19,304 bases of DNA from Ktedonobacter sp. 13_1_20CM_4_53_11 (lineage in GTDB: Bacteria > Chloroflexota > Ktedonobacteria > Ktedonobacterales > Ktedonobacteraceae), in assembly GCA_001919995.1 (NCBI GenBank), contig MNIY01000131.1, positions 1 through 19,304 on the forward strand, written 5' to 3'. Positions 9,990-19,304 of this stretch are shown piece after piece. The translations under genes were made by a program, and so were the position numbers. The notes beneath the pieces were generated by a model. That model was not told the DNA's origin and ran no database searches. It saw only the letters and a list, made by a program, of their open reading frames with translations. Positions within the stretch are counted from its first letter, which is position 1. Every line of letters begins with the position of its first letter.

Positions 9990-10024
9990 GCAACCTCACC
10001 CAGTGTCCAGTTCCTTGGGCGGTT

Positions 10025-10300
10025 GGGGTGTGGCAGGTTCCTTGTTTTGCCTCTACACTCACGAGCTAAATCACCGTTCCTTTGTGTGGATGGGGTGCGA
10101 CAGGTTCCTTGTTTTGCCTCTACACTCACGAGCTAAACCACAGCTCCTGTGTGGATGGGGTGTGGCAGATTCCTTGTTCTGCCTCTACGCTCACGAGCTA
10201 AATCACAGCTCCTCTGTGTGGATGGGGTGCGACAGGTTCCTTGTTTTACCTCTACGCTCACGAGCTAAATCACCGTTCCTGTGTGGATGGGGTGTGGCAG
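10025..10300. repeat. Tandem repeats, alternating 67- and 65-bp units
   Basis: The signature GGGGTGYGRCAG recurs at 10025, 10092, 10157, 10224 and 10289, giving spacings of 67, 65, 67 and 65 bp. Each unit continues with TTCCTTGTTYTRCCTCTAC, then CTCACGAGCTAAA and a TTCCT or CTCCT block. Units 1 and 3 have GTGTGGC and units 2 and 4 have GTGCGAC, so the true period is a 132-bp pair that was duplicated. A degraded extra copy precedes the array at about 10010. The units are nearly identical along their whole length, so there are no spacers. The array follows the regulator's stop codon closely. Confidence 0.9.
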
Positions 10301-10328
10301 CCCGCAGGCTGCCACACCCCATCCACAC
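10281..10328. repeat. Perfect 22-bp inverted repeat closing the tandem array
   Basis: Positions 10281-10302 are the exact reverse complement of 10307-10328, with the 4-nt loop CGCA. The left arm is the start of the fifth repeat unit and the right arm is the same segment inverted. A run of A follows, so read on the minus strand a T-run precedes rather than follows the stem, and neither strand looks like a standard intrinsic terminator. Confidence 0.9.
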
Positions 10329-10333
10329 AAAAA

Positions 10334-10360
10334 ATCATTGCGAAGAGCGCAGCGATGAGG
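10334..10360. repeat. REP-like dispersed repeat fragment
   Basis: CATTGCGAAGAGCGCAGCGA resembles the CATTGCGAGGAGCGAAGCGA type of short dispersed sequence found between genes in many bacteria (it translates as HCEERSDE). It adjoins the inverted repeat. A count of copies in the genome would be needed to confirm it. Confidence 0.35.
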
Positions 10361-10371
10361 ATTCAAAACCA

Positions 10372-10400
10372 CATGAACATGAACTTAGTTATGATATAAT
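10372..10400 (+). promoter_or_regulatory. Promoter of the zinc-ribbon protein gene
   Basis: A perfect -10 TATAAT at 10395-10400. The -35 region is weak (ATGAAC at 10373-10378, spacer 16). The leader would be about 50 nt long. Confidence 0.45.
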
Positions 10401-10455
10401 ATCGTATAAGCTACTCAAAAAATAATTGCCATGTCCCTTGAGAAGGAAAGTACCT

Positions 10456-11184
10456 ATGACGAAATCCATTACCGGCCAGTATGAATACCTCCATCGTTCA
10501 GGGGTAGGACTTGATTACTTTACTTCTCGTATCGATCGCCTCACACTTCAACCAGATGGACGCTTTATCCTCACCATACAGGAGCGTAGCCGCATCGCTA
10601 ATGCAGCCCAGTCCTTCATCAATGGACAGCAAATCGCAACAAATGCTCCAGAAGTACGCAGAGAAGGCACATATACTGCTCAAGGAAACGCTATCGCGTT
10701 CCGTTTTGATGATGGAGCAATAGAAGATGGAAAGCTTGCCTGGAACGGCGAAGGAATGCAGTTTGGGCCAAATTTTTTTAACAAAGTTTCCGATTCTACC
10801 TTCCTACCGCCCGCCAATCGCATGAAGAAAGATATGGACGATATCGCCAAGGGCATTAAAATTGCTGGAACCGTTGGTGGTATGGCAATGAAAGCCGCAA
10901 AGACAATCCAGGACACGATCCAAACTACCCAGGAACCCGGAACAACTCAGAAAAAATATGCTCCTCCCACATCTGCTGGCCAAACAAATCAACCGGCACC
11001 AGCGCCCCCTCCTGCGCAGTCGACCTCATCCTCTCCCTACAACGCTGCACCTCACCCACCGGTGCAGAGTACCACAACGCCTCCTCAACAGAAGGAACAG
11101 GAAGCCATCTTCTGTGATCAATGTGGCGCACGCGCTCGACCAGGAAAAAGATTTTGTAATAATTGTGGCGCTCAGCTACCGTAG
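10456..11184 (+). CDS. Protein with N-terminal beta domain, disordered linker and C-terminal zinc ribbon
   Basis: A 242-residue protein with no recognised function. Residues 1 to about 115 alternate polar and hydrophobic residues with conserved-looking turns (GQYEYLHRSG, LTLQPDGRFILTIQERSR, REGTYTAQGNAIAFRF), as in small beta-barrel or lipocalin-like domains. A short helical Ala/Gly-rich stretch (about 126-150) follows, then a Pro/Gln/Thr/Ser-rich linker to about 215. The end is a zinc ribbon with C220-x2-C223 and C234-x2-C237, the type in proteins annotated as zinc-ribbon domain-containing. The start at 10456 is chosen over TTG at 10426 because AGAAGGAAA (10441-10449) lies before it and the TATAAT promoter is close. 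It ends 13 nt from the convergent J-domain gene. It has no signal peptide, so it is probably cytoplasmic. Confidence 0.7.
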   Translation: MTKSITGQYEYLHRSGVGLDYFTSRIDRLTLQPDGRFILTIQERSRIANAAQSFINGQQIATNAPEVRREGTYTAQGNAIAFRFDDGAIEDGKLAWNGEGMQFGPNFFNKVSDSTFLPPANRMKKDMDDIAKGIKIAGTVGGMAMKAAKTIQDTIQTTQEPGTTQKKYAPPTSAGQTNQPAPAPPPAQSTSSSPYNAAPHPPVQSTTTPPQQKEQEAIFCDQCGARARPGKRFCNNCGAQLP

Positions 11185-11702: not shown

Positions 11703-12986
11703 ATGAAAAATGCAACAAAGCCTTCCCAGGATGATAGCAAGGAAGGTATCTCAGAAGTAGTCAAGACCGCCGAAAAGAGAATTTCTCCCATCAGGGCCTT
11801 CTGGACTAAATTCACCAATGACTGGTGTTTTAATCTGTCCGCTATGCTGGCATACAATTTACTTCTGGCAATGTTTCCAATAATAGTTGCCATCGTATCC
11901 ATCCTTGGTTTGTTTCTCAGTGGACTGAACCCGGATGCACAGAACCAACTCATCCAACAAATTGCCAATGTCTTCCCGTCATCAATTTCATCGCAAGAAG
12001 CTTTAAAACCTGCACTTAATCAGCTCGCCCATGATTCTGGTATTTTGGGCTATATTGCTATTATCCTGGCTGTTTTCGGCGGATCACGCCTCTTCATCAG
12101 CTTAGAGGCGTGCTTCGGCATCATCTATCATGTCCGCCAGAGGCCCATCATCAAGCAAAACCTTATGGCGATCGGGATGCTTCTCATCTTCATCCTCCTC
12201 GTTCCAATTATGATAGTTGCAGCATCAGGACCTGCGTTTGTTCTCTCTATCCTGCACAATACACCACTGGCACAGGTTCCCGGCGTTAACATCATTTTTA
12301 GCCTCGGCGGCATAATTGGCACCTTGATATCCTCGTGGATATTGTTCCAGGTTATCTATATGGTTGTCCCCAACCAGCACATCAGCTTCCGCAACGCTGT
12401 CTTGGGAGCAATTATTGCAGCGGTGGGACTTTCAATCTATTTACCACTCTTCCCATTATACGCCGCGAACTTCCTCAAAGGATTTGCGGGACCAACTGGC
12501 CTTTTCGTCATTTTACTGGTTTTCCTCTACTACTTTGCCCTTATTATACTTATTGGCGCCGAAGTCAATGCCTTCTTCGCTGAAAAGATCCAGGCAACGC
12601 CTGTTGACCTGGTGTCTATGGTCCACATCGTTACAAGTCATCTACCAAAGAATCAAGAGGATAAAGAGAAACAGGCACCACCTTCTCATAAAGATGCACC
12701 AACCGGCGATGTGGCAGAAAAAACCGGCATAGAAAATGCACCAGGTAACGGGAAACACGATACTGCTGGTATAACTACGGCTGCAGCCGCAGAGCCTTCT
12801 TCGGCAAAGACCACATCAGGACAGCCCTCGACCACGTCTCCTGCACAAAGCAAAAACAAGCACAACAAGCACGATAAAGAACATACCACGCCGACTTCAT
12901 CGAAAACTGCTGTCGTAGCCGAGGCGGTAGCAGGTACTGGCCTGGCATTCCTCGTGGAATGGCTCAGGTTACGTCGCAAAAGATGA
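11703..12986 (+). CDS. YihY/BrkB-family inner membrane protein with long disordered tail
   Basis: A 427-residue polytopic membrane protein of the YihY/BrkB (UPF0761) family, once annotated as ribonuclease BN, an activity now assigned to another protein. Family-typical segments are AMLAYNLLLAMFPIIVAIVSILGL (segment 1), FGGSRLFISLEACFGIIYHV and LIGAEVNAFFAEKI. Six hydrophobic segments lie at about 44-72, 113-135, 152-175, 194-222, 231-255 and 264-292. After about residue 300 comes a 125-residue hydrophilic tail rich in Lys, Pro, Ser, Thr and His, ending in a hydrophobic stretch and LRLRRKR. This tail is longer than in many members. The molecular function of the family is not established, with permease or transport roles suggested. 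The ribosome site before 11703 is weak (GGGTGAT). It is not in an obvious operon. Confidence 0.82.
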   Translation: MKNATKPSQDDSKEGISEVVKTAEKRISPIRAFWTKFTNDWCFNLSAMLAYNLLLAMFPIIVAIVSILGLFLSGLNPDAQNQLIQQIANVFPSSISSQEALKPALNQLAHDSGILGYIAIILAVFGGSRLFISLEACFGIIYHVRQRPIIKQNLMAIGMLLIFILLVPIMIVAASGPAFVLSILHNTPLAQVPGVNIIFSLGGIIGTLISSWILFQVIYMVVPNQHISFRNAVLGAIIAAVGLSIYLPLFPLYAANFLKGFAGPTGLFVILLVFLYYFALIILIGAEVNAFFAEKIQATPVDLVSMVHIVTSHLPKNQEDKEKQAPPSHKDAPTGDVAEKTGIENAPGNGKHDTAGITTAAAAEPSSAKTTSGQPSTTSPAQSKNKHNKHDKEHTTPTSSKTAVVAEAVAGTGLAFLVEWLRLRRKR

Positions 12987-13209: not shown

Positions 13210-16161
13210 ATGTTAGGTGAGCGTCCCCCCTTCACCAATGATCAGGAACATCAACGACTGGTAACTGCGCTGCGTGAAAGTGAGATTTTGCGTGAATTAG
13301 CAGAGCTTTTAGCATCCTCGCTCGATCTCAAAAATATTTTGCACGCATTGACTAAACGTACAATTGAGGTCTGCGAAGTAGAGCGCTGCTCTGTCTGGCT
13401 ATTCGATGACACTCGCAATGTTTTTCTCCCCACTGCCTATTACCTTTCCACGGAGCACGTTGACCGTAAAAAAATCACAGCCGCGGATCATCTCTGGTAT
13501 CATGGCTCTATCTTCTTCGATGACCCTCACCTCCCCCGCCTTCTCCAGGAAAAGGGTCTGCTCCTTGTTAAAGATCTATTGAATAATCCCAAGGCACGAA
13601 AAGTGGCAGAAACATTTCTTGTGCGCTCTGTATTACTCATTGCGCTTAAACGCGAAGATCGCATCCTGGGTATGATGTCCCTTGATGACCCGGCTCAAAT
13701 ACGCGACTTCTCCCAGGAGCAGCAACAACTTGCACGCGCTATTGGACAACAGGCAGCACTTGCCATAGACAATGCTCGGCTCTACCAGCAGGCACAGGCA
13801 GAGCGAACACGCGCTGAACGGTTGATTGAACGTGCCCGCGCCATTTATCAGGTAGCATTAACCGTCAATTCAGGGGAAGACCTTTCGGTTGTGCTCAAAA
13901 TCGCTACACAACACCTGGTTCGCGGACTAAACGCGGATAGTGGTGAGATTATGCTCATAAATTCTCAGACGTTATACCTGGCTAACAGTACAGGGCCGCA
14001 ACAAACACATTTCAATGAACCACTCATCACAGCCACAACACTGCAAGACCTACCTGACTGTCAAAAGGCGGCTACCACTGGTTCGCCCCTCTTTTTGAAT
14101 ATCCATCAAATGACGGAATCCGAACAGCCTTTTTTTCAAAAGCTCGGCTTTGATAATGTGATGATTGTCCCGCTGATGGCTGGCGGTGATCGTTCAATTA
14201 CCTCCACACCGGGTACCCAGCCGGCATCCTCTAGTTCTCAGTGCATTGGCTTCGCCTTTGTCAACTATCGAGACTCGACCTATCACCCCACTCAAGGTCA
14301 GTTTGCCTTTGCTCAGGATATTGCGGCCCAGTGTGCGCTGGCTGTGAAAAAAGATCAACTCCTGGCAGATGTCCGTAATTCTGCTAAGTTGGCAACCGAA
14401 CGGGCAAATACGCTCGACGCTGTTTTCCAGGCCATGAGCGAAGGAATAACCGTTGTCAACCAGGATGGAGAAGTTCTTGTACGCAACAACGCCGCCTCGC
14501 TCTTTCTCGGAGTTCCAGTAAACTCTACTGATCGATTACAATCGTTTCTCAATCGTTACCCGACCCGCTCGATGCATGGGCAACCGCTTTCGTACGATGA
14601 ATTCCCGGTTGCGCGCGCCCTCAAAGGTGAACGCATCCGTGGTGAACGATTCGTGACCGTCCGGGGTGATGGCGTCGAGCGAGTGATAGAGGTAAATGTC
14701 ACTCCCATGTTGGATGAGGCGCAAAAACAGGTAGGGCTCGTCAGCGCCTTTCGCGATGTCACACAGCAAACACGCGCCGAGCAGCGTGTTCGTTTGGCGC
14801 TCGAAACAATGCTCAATGTAGCGGAAGCTGTTTCCGGCATTACCGAAATAAAAGATATTCTCGATAGTGTCCTGGAAATGACGCTCTCTACTCTCAACTG
14901 CGAGCGGGGCTCCGTCCACCTCTTTGATCAAAGTGAAGAAGCGTTTACCTTCCTGTTGTCCAGGGGATTCAAAGATAATGAAGTAGAAAAAACATGGCTA
15001 TTCGAGCAGAGCCGCTGGCTTTCTCCAGAGGCACATCAGTATCAAGGGTTCCGTAGACAAATATTAGAAGGCCATGCCACCGTCATTAACGCCGAGCAGT
15101 ACGACAACCAGCCCAATCCATTCAACCAGACAATGGTACTTGCCGCACCTATAACTCACAATCATCACATACTTGGCTTGATAACCCTGGATCGCTCATT
15201 ATCAGATTCAAAGAATATTTCCCCTGGCGAAACTGAACAGCCGTCTGTACCGCTTGATTTTTCTATCTGGGATATGGCAGTCATCGAAGGCATAGCGCAA
15301 CTTGCCGGGCTGGCAATCGAGCAGGCCCGCTGGCAGCAAGAAGCTGTGGACGCGCGCACGAGCGAAGCCGCAATGCGCGAGGCAAATGCTCTAAAAGACG
15401 AATTTCTGGCTATCACCGCTCACGAATTTCGTTCACCTCTCACTGTTATTCTCACTCATAGCCAGGTCGCTTTACGTATGTTGCGCAAAGGAACAGATCC
15501 ACAGAACACACAACGAGTGGCTGATAGCCTTACAGCGATTGAGGAACAAGCTCACCAATTGACAAATATCGTCAACACCTTCCTGGAAGTAACCCAGATC
15601 AACCGCAAACAACTGGTTATCAACTCAGAACCTGCTGACCTTGCAGAGATTGCTGAACAGGTGGTCTCAGCCCATGGCTCTACGTCAACCGCTCACCAGA
15701 TCGCTTGTCACATCGCACCTAGCGATCACCCTTATATCGTTATTGGAGACAGCGCACGCCTCAAACAAGTAATTGCCAACCTGGTACAGAATGCCATAAA
15801 ATATAGTCCTCTCGGCGGTCCAATCACCGTCTCCTTGCGCCAGAAAGAGAGTGAAATAGATAAGGGCAGTCGAACCATCGAAGTCTGCATTGAGGATTCA
15901 GGCATTGGCATCCCAAAAGAAGCGCTCCCTCGTCTCTTCGAACGCTTTTATCGAGGGTCCAATATCGATGGAAGTAAAACCAGGGGCATAGGTCTCGGCC
16001 TGTATATTGTCGCGGAACTGCTCCACATGCACGGTGGGACTATCCGAGCTGAAAGCAGTGGTATACCAGGCGAAGGAAGCCGCTTTATTGTCACGTTACC
16101 TTCGTCCAATCTAGAGAAAGAACTTGTAGATAGTGATAGAGCTTCGCAATTGGCTCCTTGA
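13210..16161 (+). CDS. Multi-GAF/PAS sensor histidine kinase (orphan)
   Basis: A soluble 983-residue histidine kinase with no predicted membrane segment, so it should sense a cytoplasmic cue. Domains in order are GAF (about 27-195), a second, more divergent GAF (about 215-390), PAS (about 399-520, DAVFQAMSEGITVVNQDGEVL then FRDVTQQ), a third GAF (about 535-715) and the kinase core. The phosphoacceptor is His738 in LAITAHEFRSPL, the N box is NLVQNAIKYSP with Asn861, the G1 box is DSGIGIP (Asp896) and the G2 box is GIGLGLYI (926-933), so the kinase looks active. GAF domains bind cyclic nucleotides, tetrapyrroles or other small molecules, and no chromophore cysteine motif could be pinned down. 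GAGGAAGAG precedes the ATG at 13210. No response regulator is in the window, so the partner is elsewhere. Sixteen nucleotides after the stop is the putative start of the interrupted HD-domain gene, suggesting an original two-gene unit. Confidence 0.88.
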   Translation: MLGERPPFTNDQEHQRLVTALRESEILRELAELLASSLDLKNILHALTKRTIEVCEVERCSVWLFDDTRNVFLPTAYYLSTEHVDRKKITAADHLWYHGSIFFDDPHLPRLLQEKGLLLVKDLLNNPKARKVAETFLVRSVLLIALKREDRILGMMSLDDPAQIRDFSQEQQQLARAIGQQAALAIDNARLYQQAQAERTRAERLIERARAIYQVALTVNSGEDLSVVLKIATQHLVRGLNADSGEIMLINSQTLYLANSTGPQQTHFNEPLITATTLQDLPDCQKAATTGSPLFLNIHQMTESEQPFFQKLGFDNVMIVPLMAGGDRSITSTPGTQPASSSSQCIGFAFVNYRDSTYHPTQGQFAFAQDIAAQCALAVKKDQLLADVRNSAKLATERANTLDAVFQAMSEGITVVNQDGEVLVRNNAASLFLGVPVNSTDRLQSFLNRYPTRSMHGQPLSYDEFPVARALKGERIRGERFVTVRGDGVERVIEVNVTPMLDEAQKQVGLVSAFRDVTQQTRAEQRVRLALETMLNVAEAVSGITEIKDILDSVLEMTLSTLNCERGSVHLFDQSEEAFTFLLSRGFKDNEVEKTWLFEQSRWLSPEAHQYQGFRRQILEGHATVINAEQYDNQPNPFNQTMVLAAPITHNHHILGLITLDRSLSDSKNISPGETEQPSVPLDFSIWDMAVIEGIAQLAGLAIEQARWQQEAVDARTSEAAMREANALKDEFLAITAHEFRSPLTVILTHSQVALRMLRKGTDPQNTQRVADSLTAIEEQAHQLTNIVNTFLEVTQINRKQLVINSEPADLAEIAEQVVSAHGSTSTAHQIACHIAPSDHPYIVIGDSARLKQVIANLVQNAIKYSPLGGPITVSLRQKESEIDKGSRTIEVCIEDSGIGIPKEALPRLFERFYRGSNIDGSKTRGIGLGLYIVAELLHMHGGTIRAESSGIPGEGSRFIVTLPSSNLEKELVDSDRASQLAP

Positions 16162-16177
16162 ACGCGCTAAAGCAATC

Positions 16178-16201
16178 ATGGATAGTCAGCGACTCCACAC
16201 C
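16178..16201 (+). pseudogene. Possible 5' fragment of the HD-domain gene interrupted by the iscB element
   Basis: ATG GAT AGT CAG CGA CTC CAC ACC reads MDSQRLHT and then meets TGA at 16202-16204. It begins 16 nt after the kinase stop. Short starts of this kind precede the HDxxH segment in small HD phosphohydrolases, and the matching HD segment is at the right edge of the element (17788-17892). The fragment is too short to prove and no good ribosome site precedes it, so the call rests on the paired right-hand fragment. Confidence 0.35.
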
Positions 16202-16452
16202 TGAATGGGTGGGGGCTTGTTCCGGCAAGCCCCGATGCTGAGCAGTCCCCAGGTGTAAGTACCTGGTAGCCCTTCGCGAAGAATGCATAGGCACTCCGGG
16301 GTGGCCTTCCAGTCCCGGACCCTGCGGCGCGTCGTTAAACAGCGAGATGGGGTTTCAATCGCAGTGCGGCTCGCATCCAAAGGAAACCTTCGCAGAAGTT
16401 GGACGAGGAAAACTTTACCCGGCGCTTGCCGGAGGCCCGAAAGGGCAAGAAC
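16186..16452 (+). ncRNA. Omega RNA (guide RNA) of the IscB system, approximate ends
   Basis: IscB proteins use an RNA encoded just upstream of the gene, with the guide at its 5' end copied from flanking DNA. The 300 nt before iscB code for nothing known and are densely folded. GGGGCTTG/CAAGCCCC (16212-16219 with 16226-16233), CCAGGT/ACCTGG (16249-16254 with 16261-16266), the palindrome CTTCGCGAAG (16272-16281), TCCGGG/CCCGGA (16295-16300 with 16314-16319), GGTTTC/GAAACC enclosing TGCG/CGCA (16351-16388), AAGTT/AACTT (16396-16415), CCGGC/GCCGG (16419-16432) and GCCC-GAAA-GGGC (16435-16446), which has a GNRA tetraloop, are all perfect short stems. The scaffold probably starts near 16202, so the guide should be the last 16 or so bases before it. 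The exact boundary is uncertain by about 10 nt. No dedicated promoter was recognised, so it may be cut from the kinase transcript. Confidence 0.75.
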
Positions 16453-16465
16453 AGAGGACTCAGCC

Positions 16466-17761
16466 ATGTCGTACGTCTTTGTGATTGATCAGGAGAAGCG
16501 GCCCCTCGATCCGGTTCATCCCGGTCGAGCCCGCAAGCTCCTCTCATCTGGGAAGGCAGCCGTCTACCGGCGATTTCCCTTTGTCCTGATTCTCAAGCAT
16601 CCAGTTTCTGAAGCGCATCCACAGCCCCTGCGCCTGAAAATTGATCCAGGGTCCAAGACAACGGGGCTCGCCGTCCTCAACGATACATCAGGACAGGTGC
16701 TATGGGCTGCGGAGTTGGTTCACCGGGGAGAAGAGGTCCACCAGGCGCTGCAAAAACGGGCTGGCGTGCGTCGAGGTCGCCGTTCTCGGCATACGCGCTA
16801 CCGGGCGGCCCGCTTTAGCAATCGTCGGCGCAAACGCGGGTGGCTTGCTCCTTCGTTGTGCTCACGGATGCAAAATGTGCAGACCTGGACCAGGCGGCTG
16901 ATGCGTTGGTGCCCGCTGGGTGCCATTTCCTATGAGGCGGTGCGCTTCGACACCCAGGCCATCCAAAACCCTGAGATCAAGGGAGTCGCCTACCAACACG
17001 GAACTCTCGCGGGGCTAGAAGTTAAAGAGTATCTTTTACTCAAATGGCGACATAAATGCGTCTACTGCCAAAAAGGAGATATCCCGCTCGAAGTGGAACA
17101 TATCGTGCCCAAAAGACGTGGAGGCAGTGACCGGATCACCAATCTCACCCTGGCCTGCGAAGCGTGCAATCAACAAAAAGGCTCCCAAACCGCCCAGGCA
17201 TTTGGCTTTCCCCACCTCCAGGCACAGGCCTTGCAACCATTAAAAGACGCAGCAGCAGTGAACTCGACACGTTGGGCGCTCTATGAACGACTCAAAGCCA
17301 CAGGACTGCCGATCGAGGTCAGTACGGGGGGCCAGACAAAATGGAATAGGAAACAACGCGGCATTCCCAAGAGTCATTGGCTCGACGCTGTATGCGTGGG
17401 GCCATCTACACCAGAGCGGGTCCAGTGGCAACATGTTATCCCCCTGCTTATCACAGCCAGAGGCCGACAATGCCGCCAGCTTTGTAATGTTGACGGATGG
17501 GGATTTCCAAGGAGCCGCCCGAAAGGGCCGAGCAAAGTCTTTGGATTCCAAACGGGGGATATGGTTCAGGCAGTCGTCACCAGAGGGAAAAGGATGGGTA
17601 CATATGTTGGACGCGTTGCCATTAAAACTGATGGGTACTTTAAGATTATCGGCGCACATGGCATGGTGGAGGGCATTCATGCTCGCTATTGCTCGCCTCT
17701 ACATCGCGTTGATGGTTATGAGTATCAAAAAGGTTCGGCGGCGCTTCCTCCCCAGATGTGA
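16466..17761 (+). CDS. iscB: IscB RNA-guided DNA endonuclease (RuvC-HNH, Cas9-ancestor group)
   Basis: A complete 431-residue IscB. In order: PLMP-type N-terminal domain (RPLDPVHPGRARKLLSSGKA, 12-31), RuvC-I LKIDPGSKTTG with D60, an Arg-rich bridge helix (101-124), RuvC-II ISYEAVRFDTQ with E157, an HNH domain (about 190-245) with H212 in EVEHIVPKRRGG and zinc cysteines C198/C201 and C231/C234, RuvC-III KSHWLDAVC with D307, and a C-terminal target/TAM-interacting domain (about 330-425). All catalytic residues are present, so both nuclease sites should work. With the upstream omega RNA it would cut double-stranded DNA next to a short motif (TAM). The start is 16466: AGAGGA lies 7 nt before it and the family N-terminus begins here. 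The frame is open back to 16283 only because the omega RNA lacks stops. No tnpA or CRISPR array adjoins. It lies in an HD-domain gene remnant. Confidence 0.95.
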   Translation: MSYVFVIDQEKRPLDPVHPGRARKLLSSGKAAVYRRFPFVLILKHPVSEAHPQPLRLKIDPGSKTTGLAVLNDTSGQVLWAAELVHRGEEVHQALQKRAGVRRGRRSRHTRYRAARFSNRRRKRGWLAPSLCSRMQNVQTWTRRLMRWCPLGAISYEAVRFDTQAIQNPEIKGVAYQHGTLAGLEVKEYLLLKWRHKCVYCQKGDIPLEVEHIVPKRRGGSDRITNLTLACEACNQQKGSQTAQAFGFPHLQAQALQPLKDAAAVNSTRWALYERLKATGLPIEVSTGGQTKWNRKQRGIPKSHWLDAVCVGPSTPERVQWQHVIPLLITARGRQCRQLCNVDGWGFPRSRPKGPSKVFGFQTGDMVQAVVTRGKRMGTYVGRVAIKTDGYFKIIGAHGMVEGIHARYCSPLHRVDGYEYQKGSAALPPQM

Positions 17762-17783
17762 ACATCGGGGCCTCCGCGCCGCC
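17737..17783 (+). repeat. Large composite stem-loop spanning the iscB stop codon
   Basis: GGCGGCGC (17737-17744) pairs perfectly with GCGCCGCC (17776-17783). Inside, CCCC-A-GATG (17750-17758) pairs with CATCGGGG (17763-17770) around TGAA, which contains the stop codon TGA (17759-17761). A symmetrical 5-nt internal loop separates the two helices. No T-run follows, so it looks more like a transposon-end hairpin than a terminator. It lies immediately before the host HD-gene sequence resumes. Confidence 0.75.
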
Positions 17784-17787
17784 TTCT

Positions 17788-17892
17788 GGTGAAGGAGCCG
17801 AAGACACTGCCCATGACTTTGATCACCTTGTCCGTGTCATGGCTATTGCAGATTCGATTCAAACGATCGAGGGAGGAGATCTTCTCAATTAG
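17788..17892 (+). pseudogene. HD-domain phosphohydrolase gene remnant (internal fragment)
   Basis: Immediately right of the iscB element one frame reads GEGAEDTAHDFDHLVRVMAI and then ADSIQTIEGGDLLN before TAG at 17890-17892. The pattern HDFDHLxRVxxxAxxIxxxEGGD is the start of the HD domain in small metal-dependent phosphohydrolases (compare the AHDxxHxxRV segment of E. coli YedJ). The second half of the domain, including the LAALLHDI metal site, is missing, as is the true N-terminus. The sequence has the codon structure of a real gene but no start or ribosome site here. It probably continued the gene at 16178 before iscB entered, and a second deletion or junction removed the C-terminal part near 17886. 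The product, if any, would be inactive. Confidence 0.6.
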
Positions 17893-18608
17893 CTTATTCG
17901 ATAATTGAATGACGCCGCTTTCCTCGCTGCTGCGCTCAGGTGGACAGTAAATCCTACCTGTGGATGGAGAGTAACATACTGTACCACCACCGGACCTGGA
18001 TCAGCCGTCAGTACCACAACTACGACACTCGATGCGATAATATGTGCATTGGCAACCATAACCTCGCATTGCCCCTTCTCAAACCGACCTGAACCCGAGG
18101 TTTCTTGACCGTCTTCATCAGCACGAGGACCCACAGGACCTGCAAGCCTGTCCACAGCTGGCATACTTGGATTGGTGTCCGCTTCATAAGATCGCACCCC
18201 GGTCATTTCAGGTTTCTCAATTGCCTCCTGCTTGGGAACAACCTGCAAACGCACCTTTGTTGCACGTCTCGGTGAACGTTGCCTGCTTTGCACAGGACCA
18301 GGCGCTTCCGTTGGTCGAGAAACCGCTGCCCCCACTGTAGCTAGAGGAAGATAATCGGTTCGTACCTTCACTGATCTACTGACCGCCGGCAACTCTTTAG
18401 ATTGAAGACTCAAGCGCGGGGGAATAAGCGCCGTACTTTTTATGATAGGGACATTATCTTCAACCTCGTCTGATTCCGGGTCTTCCTGAGCAGACACATC
18501 TGTCAACGCTTCTTCAACTGAGGCCGAGAGGTCAAAGCGCTCTCTTGCCACACGCGCTTGCCATTGCTGCTGCTCTTTCTCATCAATGTCATCAAGCCAG
18601 TCCATCAT
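17889..18608 (-). CDS. Uncharacterised protein with acidic N-terminus and C-terminal beta-rich domain
   Basis: A 239-residue protein I cannot assign to a named family. Residues 1-60 are acidic (DWLDDIDEKEQQQ, EDPESDEVEDN). Residues 60-165 are Pro/Arg/Ser-rich and probably disordered. The last 70 or so residues form a likely beta-sandwich: KGQCEVMVANAHIIASSVVV, then VLTADPGPVVVQYVTLHPQ and VGFTVHLSAAARKAASFNYR. That end looks complete and I have an impression of similar tails in other Ktedonobacteria proteins, so it is probably not cut by the neighbouring insertion. AGAGG lies 3 nt before the first ATG (18608) and 6 nt before the second (18605), so the second may be the real start. An extended -10 promoter is about 65 nt upstream. 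Its stop overlaps the end of the HD-gene remnant on the other strand. Confidence 0.65.
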   Translation of the reverse strand: MMDWLDDIDEKEQQQWQARVARERFDLSASVEEALTDVSAQEDPESDEVEDNVPIIKSTALIPPRLSLQSKELPAVSRSVKVRTDYLPLATVGAAVSRPTEAPGPVQSRQRSPRRATKVRLQVVPKQEAIEKPEMTGVRSYEADTNPSMPAVDRLAGPVGPRADEDGQETSGSGRFEKGQCEVMVANAHIIASSVVVVVLTADPGPVVVQYVTLHPQVGFTVHLSAAARKAASFNYRIS

Positions 18609-18750: not shown

Positions 18751-19304
18751 CTACTTCTGCACCGTGATTATAGCCCCTATCATTGCCTCGACTGGTGGCA
18801 CAAGCATTCCATTGCGCTCAACCAGCCAGTCCTCCAGCAAATGGCGTAACTCCTTGCGCGTCGCATCATCACCGGGTAAAATGAGCTGCTCTGACACCTC
18901 TTCCACTGCAACATCAACAGAAGGATAGCTGAGGATTACGGGGAGTTTGACGACTTCCACATCTGCGTATATCCCCAACTCATAAAGCACGTCGAGCACA
19001 TGAATATATCCAGGAGGCAGACGTCGCTCATCTCCATGGAAGTGTTTCCAGAGATGGCCAGTTAAAGCATCAATAGAGGTTGCTCGCATGTAGATATAGC
19101 AAATATGGCCCGTCGCTTTAATCAGTTTCGCCAGGAAAGGTACAATGTCGACTATTGGATAGAGTACGTGACTACAGATAACGATATCTGCTGCAAGAGT
19201 CTCGGGAGCATCCTGCCAGATCGACTGAATAATGGTGATATTTGTGAGGCCCTGTCCATCCGCGTCCTTGCGCAAATAACCCAGCATTGCAGCATTTGGT
19301 TCAA
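18751..19304 (-). CDS. SAM-dependent methyltransferase, C-terminal part (partial)
   Basis: The frame is open to the window edge, where EPNAAMLGYLRKDA reads like the segment after motif I of class I methyltransferases (V-E-P-x-x-x-M-L). The start and the glycine-rich SAM-binding motif are therefore outside the window, and the ATG at 19287 is internal. Further family signals are NITIIQSIWQDAP, then ADIVICSHVLYPIVDIVPFL (motifs II and post-II) and IKATGHICYIYMR. The visible part has 184 residues. The rest is charged and helical with a final hydrophobic strand (AMIGAIITVQK). The substrate is not predictable. The downstream gene on the same strand has its own promoter, so the two are probably not an operon. 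Confidence 0.75.
   Translation of the reverse strand, partial: EPNAAMLGYLRKDADGQGLTNITIIQSIWQDAPETLAADIVICSHVLYPIVDIVPFLAKLIKATGHICYIYMRATSIDALTGHLWKHFHGDERRLPPGYIHVLDVLYELGIYADVEVVKLPVILSYPSVDVAVEEVSEQLILPGDDATRKELRHLLEDWLVERNGMLVPPVEAMIGAIITVQK

Follow-up and report, generated by a model that had tools for sequence, protein, structure and literature searches.

The window, by which we mean the whole analysed stretch of 19,304 nucleotides, very probably carries an IscB element of the HEARO/ISC type that is intact and non-autonomous and that entered a gene for an HD-domain phosphohydrolase close to its start, on the 5' side of a GTGA motif. IscB is an RNA-guided nuclease related to the ancestor of Cas9. 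The locus is a further example of the known IscB/HEARO elements and not a new kind of system. It shares with them (NF040563, RF02033) a protein of about 430 residues with RRXRR and HNH domains, a HEARO RNA directly 5' of the gene, an element edge at the RNA start, a 3' terminal hairpin, an RTGA motif at the 3' edge and the lack of tnpA, and no difference was found except in sequence. Elements of this kind were reportedly described by Weinberg in 2009, Kapitonov in 2016 and Altae-Tran in 2021. An earlier note on this DNA had placed the element at 16186..17783; the element is indeed present there, and its edges are better set one base earlier and five bases later (Table 1).

Table 1. Features of the IscB element and of the interrupted host gene (positions in the window).
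Feature	Position	Strand	Basis
5' piece of the HD gene, ELRNWLLERAKAIMD; overlaps the histidine kinase gene at that gene's end	16139..16184	+	tblastn and frame continuity
Expected 16-nt guide (host sequence)	16169..16184	+	Predicted from the sequence directly 5' of HEARO position 1
Whole element, 1604 bp (omega RNA, IscB, terminal hairpin)	16185..17788	+	5' edge of related copies, ungapped joins, motif after the hairpin
Omega RNA scaffold (HEARO, RF02033)	16185..16418	+	Rfam covariance match; may extend towards 16465
iscB, 431 aa (RRXRR, split RuvC, HNH, C-terminal region)	16466..17761	+	Pfam, NCBIfam, alignment, structure
3' terminal hairpin, overlapping the iscB stop codon	17737..17783	+	Fold; comparable hairpins end related elements
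GTGA, expected target-adjacent motif, on the host side of the 3' edge	17789..17792	+	Position from the hairpin and the joins
3' piece of the HD gene, EGAEDTAHDFDHLVRVMAIADSIQTIEGGDLLN followed by a stop	17789..17889	+	tblastn; remainder of the gene gone

Pfam recognised RRXRR (232 bits) and HNH (47 bits) in the 431-residue ORF; for the parts beyond these, split RuvC and C-terminal region, we use the names that we presume to apply to an IscB. The mechanically called ORF opens further upstream, at 16283, within the omega RNA. The NCBIfam model guided_IscB (NF040563) scored 434.3 bits for a cut-off of 175, and the Cas9d and Cas9 models stayed far under their thresholds (60.1 bits for a cut-off of 375 and 21.8 for a cut-off of 100, respectively). 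The protein was aligned with those of 24 of the 78 related loci. L040 was omitted from this alignment for a reported stop; L031, L034, L036, L051, L054, L057, L060, L067, L068 and L069 were dropped to keep the set small, and L028 and L030 were trimmed at their ends. Residues D60, E157, D307, H212, C198, C201 and C231 are invariant in all 25 sequences and C234 is nearly so (conserved in at least 90% of them), which bears out the claim of the earlier note that every catalytic residue of RuvC and HNH is kept. In the sequence alignment to OgeuIscB, D60, E157, H212 and D307 pair with the D, E, H and D of that protein.

The sequence matches retrieved from the PDB were likewise IscBs (TbaIscB at 1.7e-44, OgeuIscB at 3.3e-31). 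The AlphaFold2 model of the protein has a mean pLDDT of 77.6 and a pTM of 0.65, and its weak stretches include residues 161-185 and 335-348. All of its ten best PDB matches are IscB or IsrB complexes, 8csz being the top one with an E-value of 1.4e-25; the structure matches have TM values of 0.47-0.60 (by query) and rmsd values of 5.4-14.7. With the solved IscBs 8csz, 7xht, 9liq, 9k30 and 9nvu (OgeuIscB is among the solved IscBs) the protein shares the common fold and the active-site columns, at 17-22% identity in the fold alignments, most of those chains being longer. An IscB identical at 100% is found on VBHS01000291.1 (L026, MAG: Chloroflexi bacterium isolate CF_110). Outside the species, the nearest named relative (L027) is 59% identical, and a copy in the congeneric genome G003 is 61% identical. 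The other 24 IscBs have 69 columns without variation; the window protein differs at 5 of them, the maximum of any row (0-4 for the others), which in these sequences may be read as a slight indication of divergence or decay.

The region upstream of iscB, where the earlier note had suspected an omega RNA, was matched by the Rfam covariance model HEARO (RF02033) with 98.5 bits for a gathering cut-off of 83 (E 1.6e-19), over the full 211-position model. In the family structure, 58 of the 67 base pairs are standard in the window copy and 4 of the 10 helices are free of mismatches, so that the former count of at least eight perfect stems was generous, even if other stems can be drawn. Since the folding energy alone is unremarkable (z -1.62, with 16 of 200 shuffles folding equally well), it is the covariance match that constitutes the evidence for the RNA. 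Among the 40 related IscB loci tested out of the 78, a HEARO match was detected upstream of the gene in 38, the exceptions being L036 and L053; the score of the window RNA tops that of only 11 of these 38.

To place the 5' edge of the element, we compared related copies (71-100% identical to each other) that other genomes contain. Of the 19 copy pairs, 16 begin to be identical precisely at HEARO position 1 and the remaining 3 at 4 or 6 bases before it, and we therefore set the edge at 16185. On the 3' side, the terminal hairpin is made of outer arms of 8 bp (17737-17744 and 17776-17783) and of an inner stem (17750-17770), and is followed by TTCTG-GTGAAGG. We take ATGA or GTGA located 3' of the insertion to be the target-adjacent motif of IscB. 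The placement of GTGA carries a 2-base ambiguity, the element itself beginning with GT. A cut-point scan gave the length of the element: 11 of the 12 highest-scoring joins that it listed, the first eight included, take out exactly 1604 bp. The top-scoring join links 16181 to 17786 (162); we preferred the one linking 16184 to 17789 (157) because the related copies fix the 5' edge. Both edges are thus directly supported, the 3' end to within a few bases.

We then compared the 3' tails of 16 selected elements of this kind, that of the window included and L142, L155 and L160 left out, their ends not being recognisable. RTGA is present in 12 of them, in one of which (L163) motif and hairpin arm adjoin directly, and is absent from the other 4. 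Among other IscB elements of the order, 9 of 13 copies (those of G008 and part of those of G021) end in TATAAA or TATAAATA and not in RTGA, from which we conclude that the motif varies by lineage. In G008, four elements of about 410 bp (L133-L136), at least 99.5% identical and located at four sites, comprise a HEARO RNA and a 3' hairpin without iscB; they are stand-alone omega RNA mini-elements.

The interrupted gene was identified using the HD-domain protein of G012 (L009; Pfam HD 51.3 bits), whose gene follows a related histidine kinase gene. By tblastn, residues 19-49 of this protein were aligned to 17791-17883 with 74% identity and an E-value of 9.6e-10, and residues 4-16 to 16142-16180, a match that is weak alone (E 2.7). 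Joining 16184 to 17789 yields a single open frame, ELRNWLLERAKAIMDSEGAEDTAHDFDHLVRVMAIADSIQTIEGGD onward, which aligns without gap to the G012 protein. Since the joined flanks restore the frame of an HD-domain phosphohydrolase, the insertion broke the host gene; the 3' piece stops at 17889 and the host gene was therefore lost. In a tblastn search of 18 loci and the window, the HD gene was found at full or near-full length in 6 of the 18 (L009, L013, L015, L019, L021 and L022), and solely as two pieces flanking the element in the window and in G001.

With the G001 locus set aside, 10 related loci contain the histidine kinase gene, and in 6 of these the HD gene lies near it. The HD gene starts no more than about 110 bases from the kinase match in 5 of the 6; in L022 the distance is 573 bases. 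It was not found in the searched flank of the 4 others (L008, L016, L018 and L020, the last of which ends at a contig edge). The congeneric genome G003 (L008) has neither the element nor the HD gene, with 11 bp between the flanks. We rejected it as a clean empty site for the reason that the HD gene is missing there too, and used the HD-containing relatives as the empty-site reference. No clean empty allele was seen within the species or the genus; G001 has the same insertion, 99.3% identical over 3300 bp. Beyond the 3' remnant, the ORFs 17889-18608 and 18751-19287 (minus strand) have no Pfam or NCBIfam match, and G003, like G012 in part, conserves the DNA of the former next to the kinase.

These features suggest how the element may behave. 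It was apparently inserted 5' of GTGA, near the start of the HD gene, without gain or loss of host bases. The omega RNA begins at the 5' edge of the element and the predicted guide is accordingly made of the host bases before 16185, 16 of them if the guide length that we assume from the literature applies. A transcript beginning in the flank would then carry bases of the HD gene as the guide of the omega RNA. IscB loaded with this RNA should cut the element-free allele, where the guide match is followed by GTGA, and such a cut would help to retain the element, or to restore it, upon its excision, presumably by a Y1 transposase supplied in trans from elsewhere. We searched for the guide followed by GTGA in G001, G002, G003 and G012 (G001 being 76% complete) and, apart from the occupied site, no match came closer than 3 mismatches, as expected for a guide matching its own insertion site alone. 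Four further matches, all with 3 mismatches, were rejected as additional targets, the backward control pattern already giving 1. A plasmid collection, searched for near matches only, gave none.

No match to a Y1 transposase was found within the window, in agreement with the earlier observation that no tnpA lies beside iscB, and the element thus lacks the tnpA of an autonomous IS200/IS605 element. We extended the search, with an HMM built from six TnpA proteins of relatives, to the six-frame translations of 138 stretches: the window, 78 IscB loci, 32 further stretches and 27 HEARO loci. The set is partly redundant (L026 and L161 are the same element, in G001 or in its presumed database record, and several places occur twice) and comprises partial IscB genes at contig ends. 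No intact tnpA was detected in the 137 other stretches, within flanks that ranged from a few hundred bases up to 3 kb and at a divergence that this HMM can reach, a very divergent tnpA being able to escape it. The only match was a short relic, which three copies of a single element in G021 (L137-L139) share. It corresponds to the C-terminal part of a Y1 transposase and is located after iscB, inside the IscB element (1940-2068 of the locus), possibly as the trace of a former autonomous form.

Y1_Tnp matches exist elsewhere in the genomes: there are 3 in G001, two of them weak (E 8.6e-9 and 2.5e-7), and they are present in all 5 other genomes given. Help from a transposase in trans is therefore possible, though unproven, no cognate transposase for the window element having been identified among the matches in these six genomes. 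The element would share its way of life, that of an RNA-guided nuclease beside a transposase-dependent element, with the IS200/IS605 TnpB elements. In the latter the nuclease is laid out differently and the guide RNA lies at the opposite end of the gene.

G001 (3.2 Mb) was the nearest genome compared, with the locus at 99% identity. The aligned window differs from it by 204 SNPs over 18769 bases (1.09%), iscB by 4 over 1296 (0.31%), the omega RNA by 1 over 234, the kinase gene by 40 over 2952, and two genes named topoisomerase-like from their sequence by 7 over 2493 (0.28%) and 2 over 2124 (0.09%). Two of the iscB SNPs are silent and two change the protein, too few to judge selection; as they stand they do not seem to point to strong purifying selection. 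A tandem array lies at 10024-10300 (units of 67 and 132 bases, in 4.2 and 2.1 copies), and the alignment to G001 is interrupted at 10229-10583. Its two pieces abut at 12094-12277, where about 182 bases of the window lie outside the alignment, an indel between the assemblies. According to the earlier note, Ktedonobacter racemifer is known to carry many such IscB loci; that species is not supported as the host of this one. In G024 (13.7 Mb), at least 31 HEARO matches were counted (31 of 140 candidates scored). Among the papers searched, none joined 'Ktedonobacter' with 'HEARO' or 'Ktedonobacter racemifer' with 'IscB'.

Other readings of the locus were weighed against that of an intact element. 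The RNA region might be a mere leader with chance stems and no connection to a guide, as its modest folding z could suggest; to this we give next to no credence, the covariance model being matched over its full length, HEARO being found upstream of nearly all the related genes tested and the 5' edge of the RNA coinciding with the edge of the element. A decaying copy, that is an inactive leftover whose frame is still open by chance, would account for the 5 changed residues, for the 9 of 67 non-standard RNA pairs and for the decay of the surrounding host gene. We consider it unlikely, though the least so of these readings: the 431-codon frame is open, and at full length in G001 too, the catalytic residues and both element ends are kept, and the RNA scores over the family cut-off.

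The earlier note had proposed that the copy is either domesticated or reliant on a transposase elsewhere. The second half of this alternative is the better one. An immobile copy that the host retains for some cellular function, defence or regulation for instance, would fit the lack of a nearby tnpA, the presence of a single copy of its type in G001 (76% complete, next best IscB 56% identical) and the lower divergence of iscB than of the aligned window. Absence of tnpA is however no proof of domestication, because multi-copy elements of relatives with the same layout (L145-L148) also lack it. Nor is iscB singled out by its divergence, since that of the two topoisomerase-like genes is low too and local variation covers it, and half of its four SNPs alter the protein. 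Moreover, the element sits as a precise insertion in the gene that it broke, with both ends present, which leaves domestication unsupported and, in our judgement, quite improbable. We hold it to be very improbable as well that the C-terminal changes (columns 335, 356 and 387) reflect an altered motif or role of a resident RNA-guided nuclease kept after the decay of the host gene.

An intact element, possibly mobilised in trans, appears as the best description of the locus. Its significance is otherwise small: it provides one more IscB ortholog, of 431 residues and intact, whose guide position, motif and insertion site can be read and which is a candidate for cleavage assays. The joint in the HD gene offers a neat illustration of how the insertion site would dictate both the guide and the motif.
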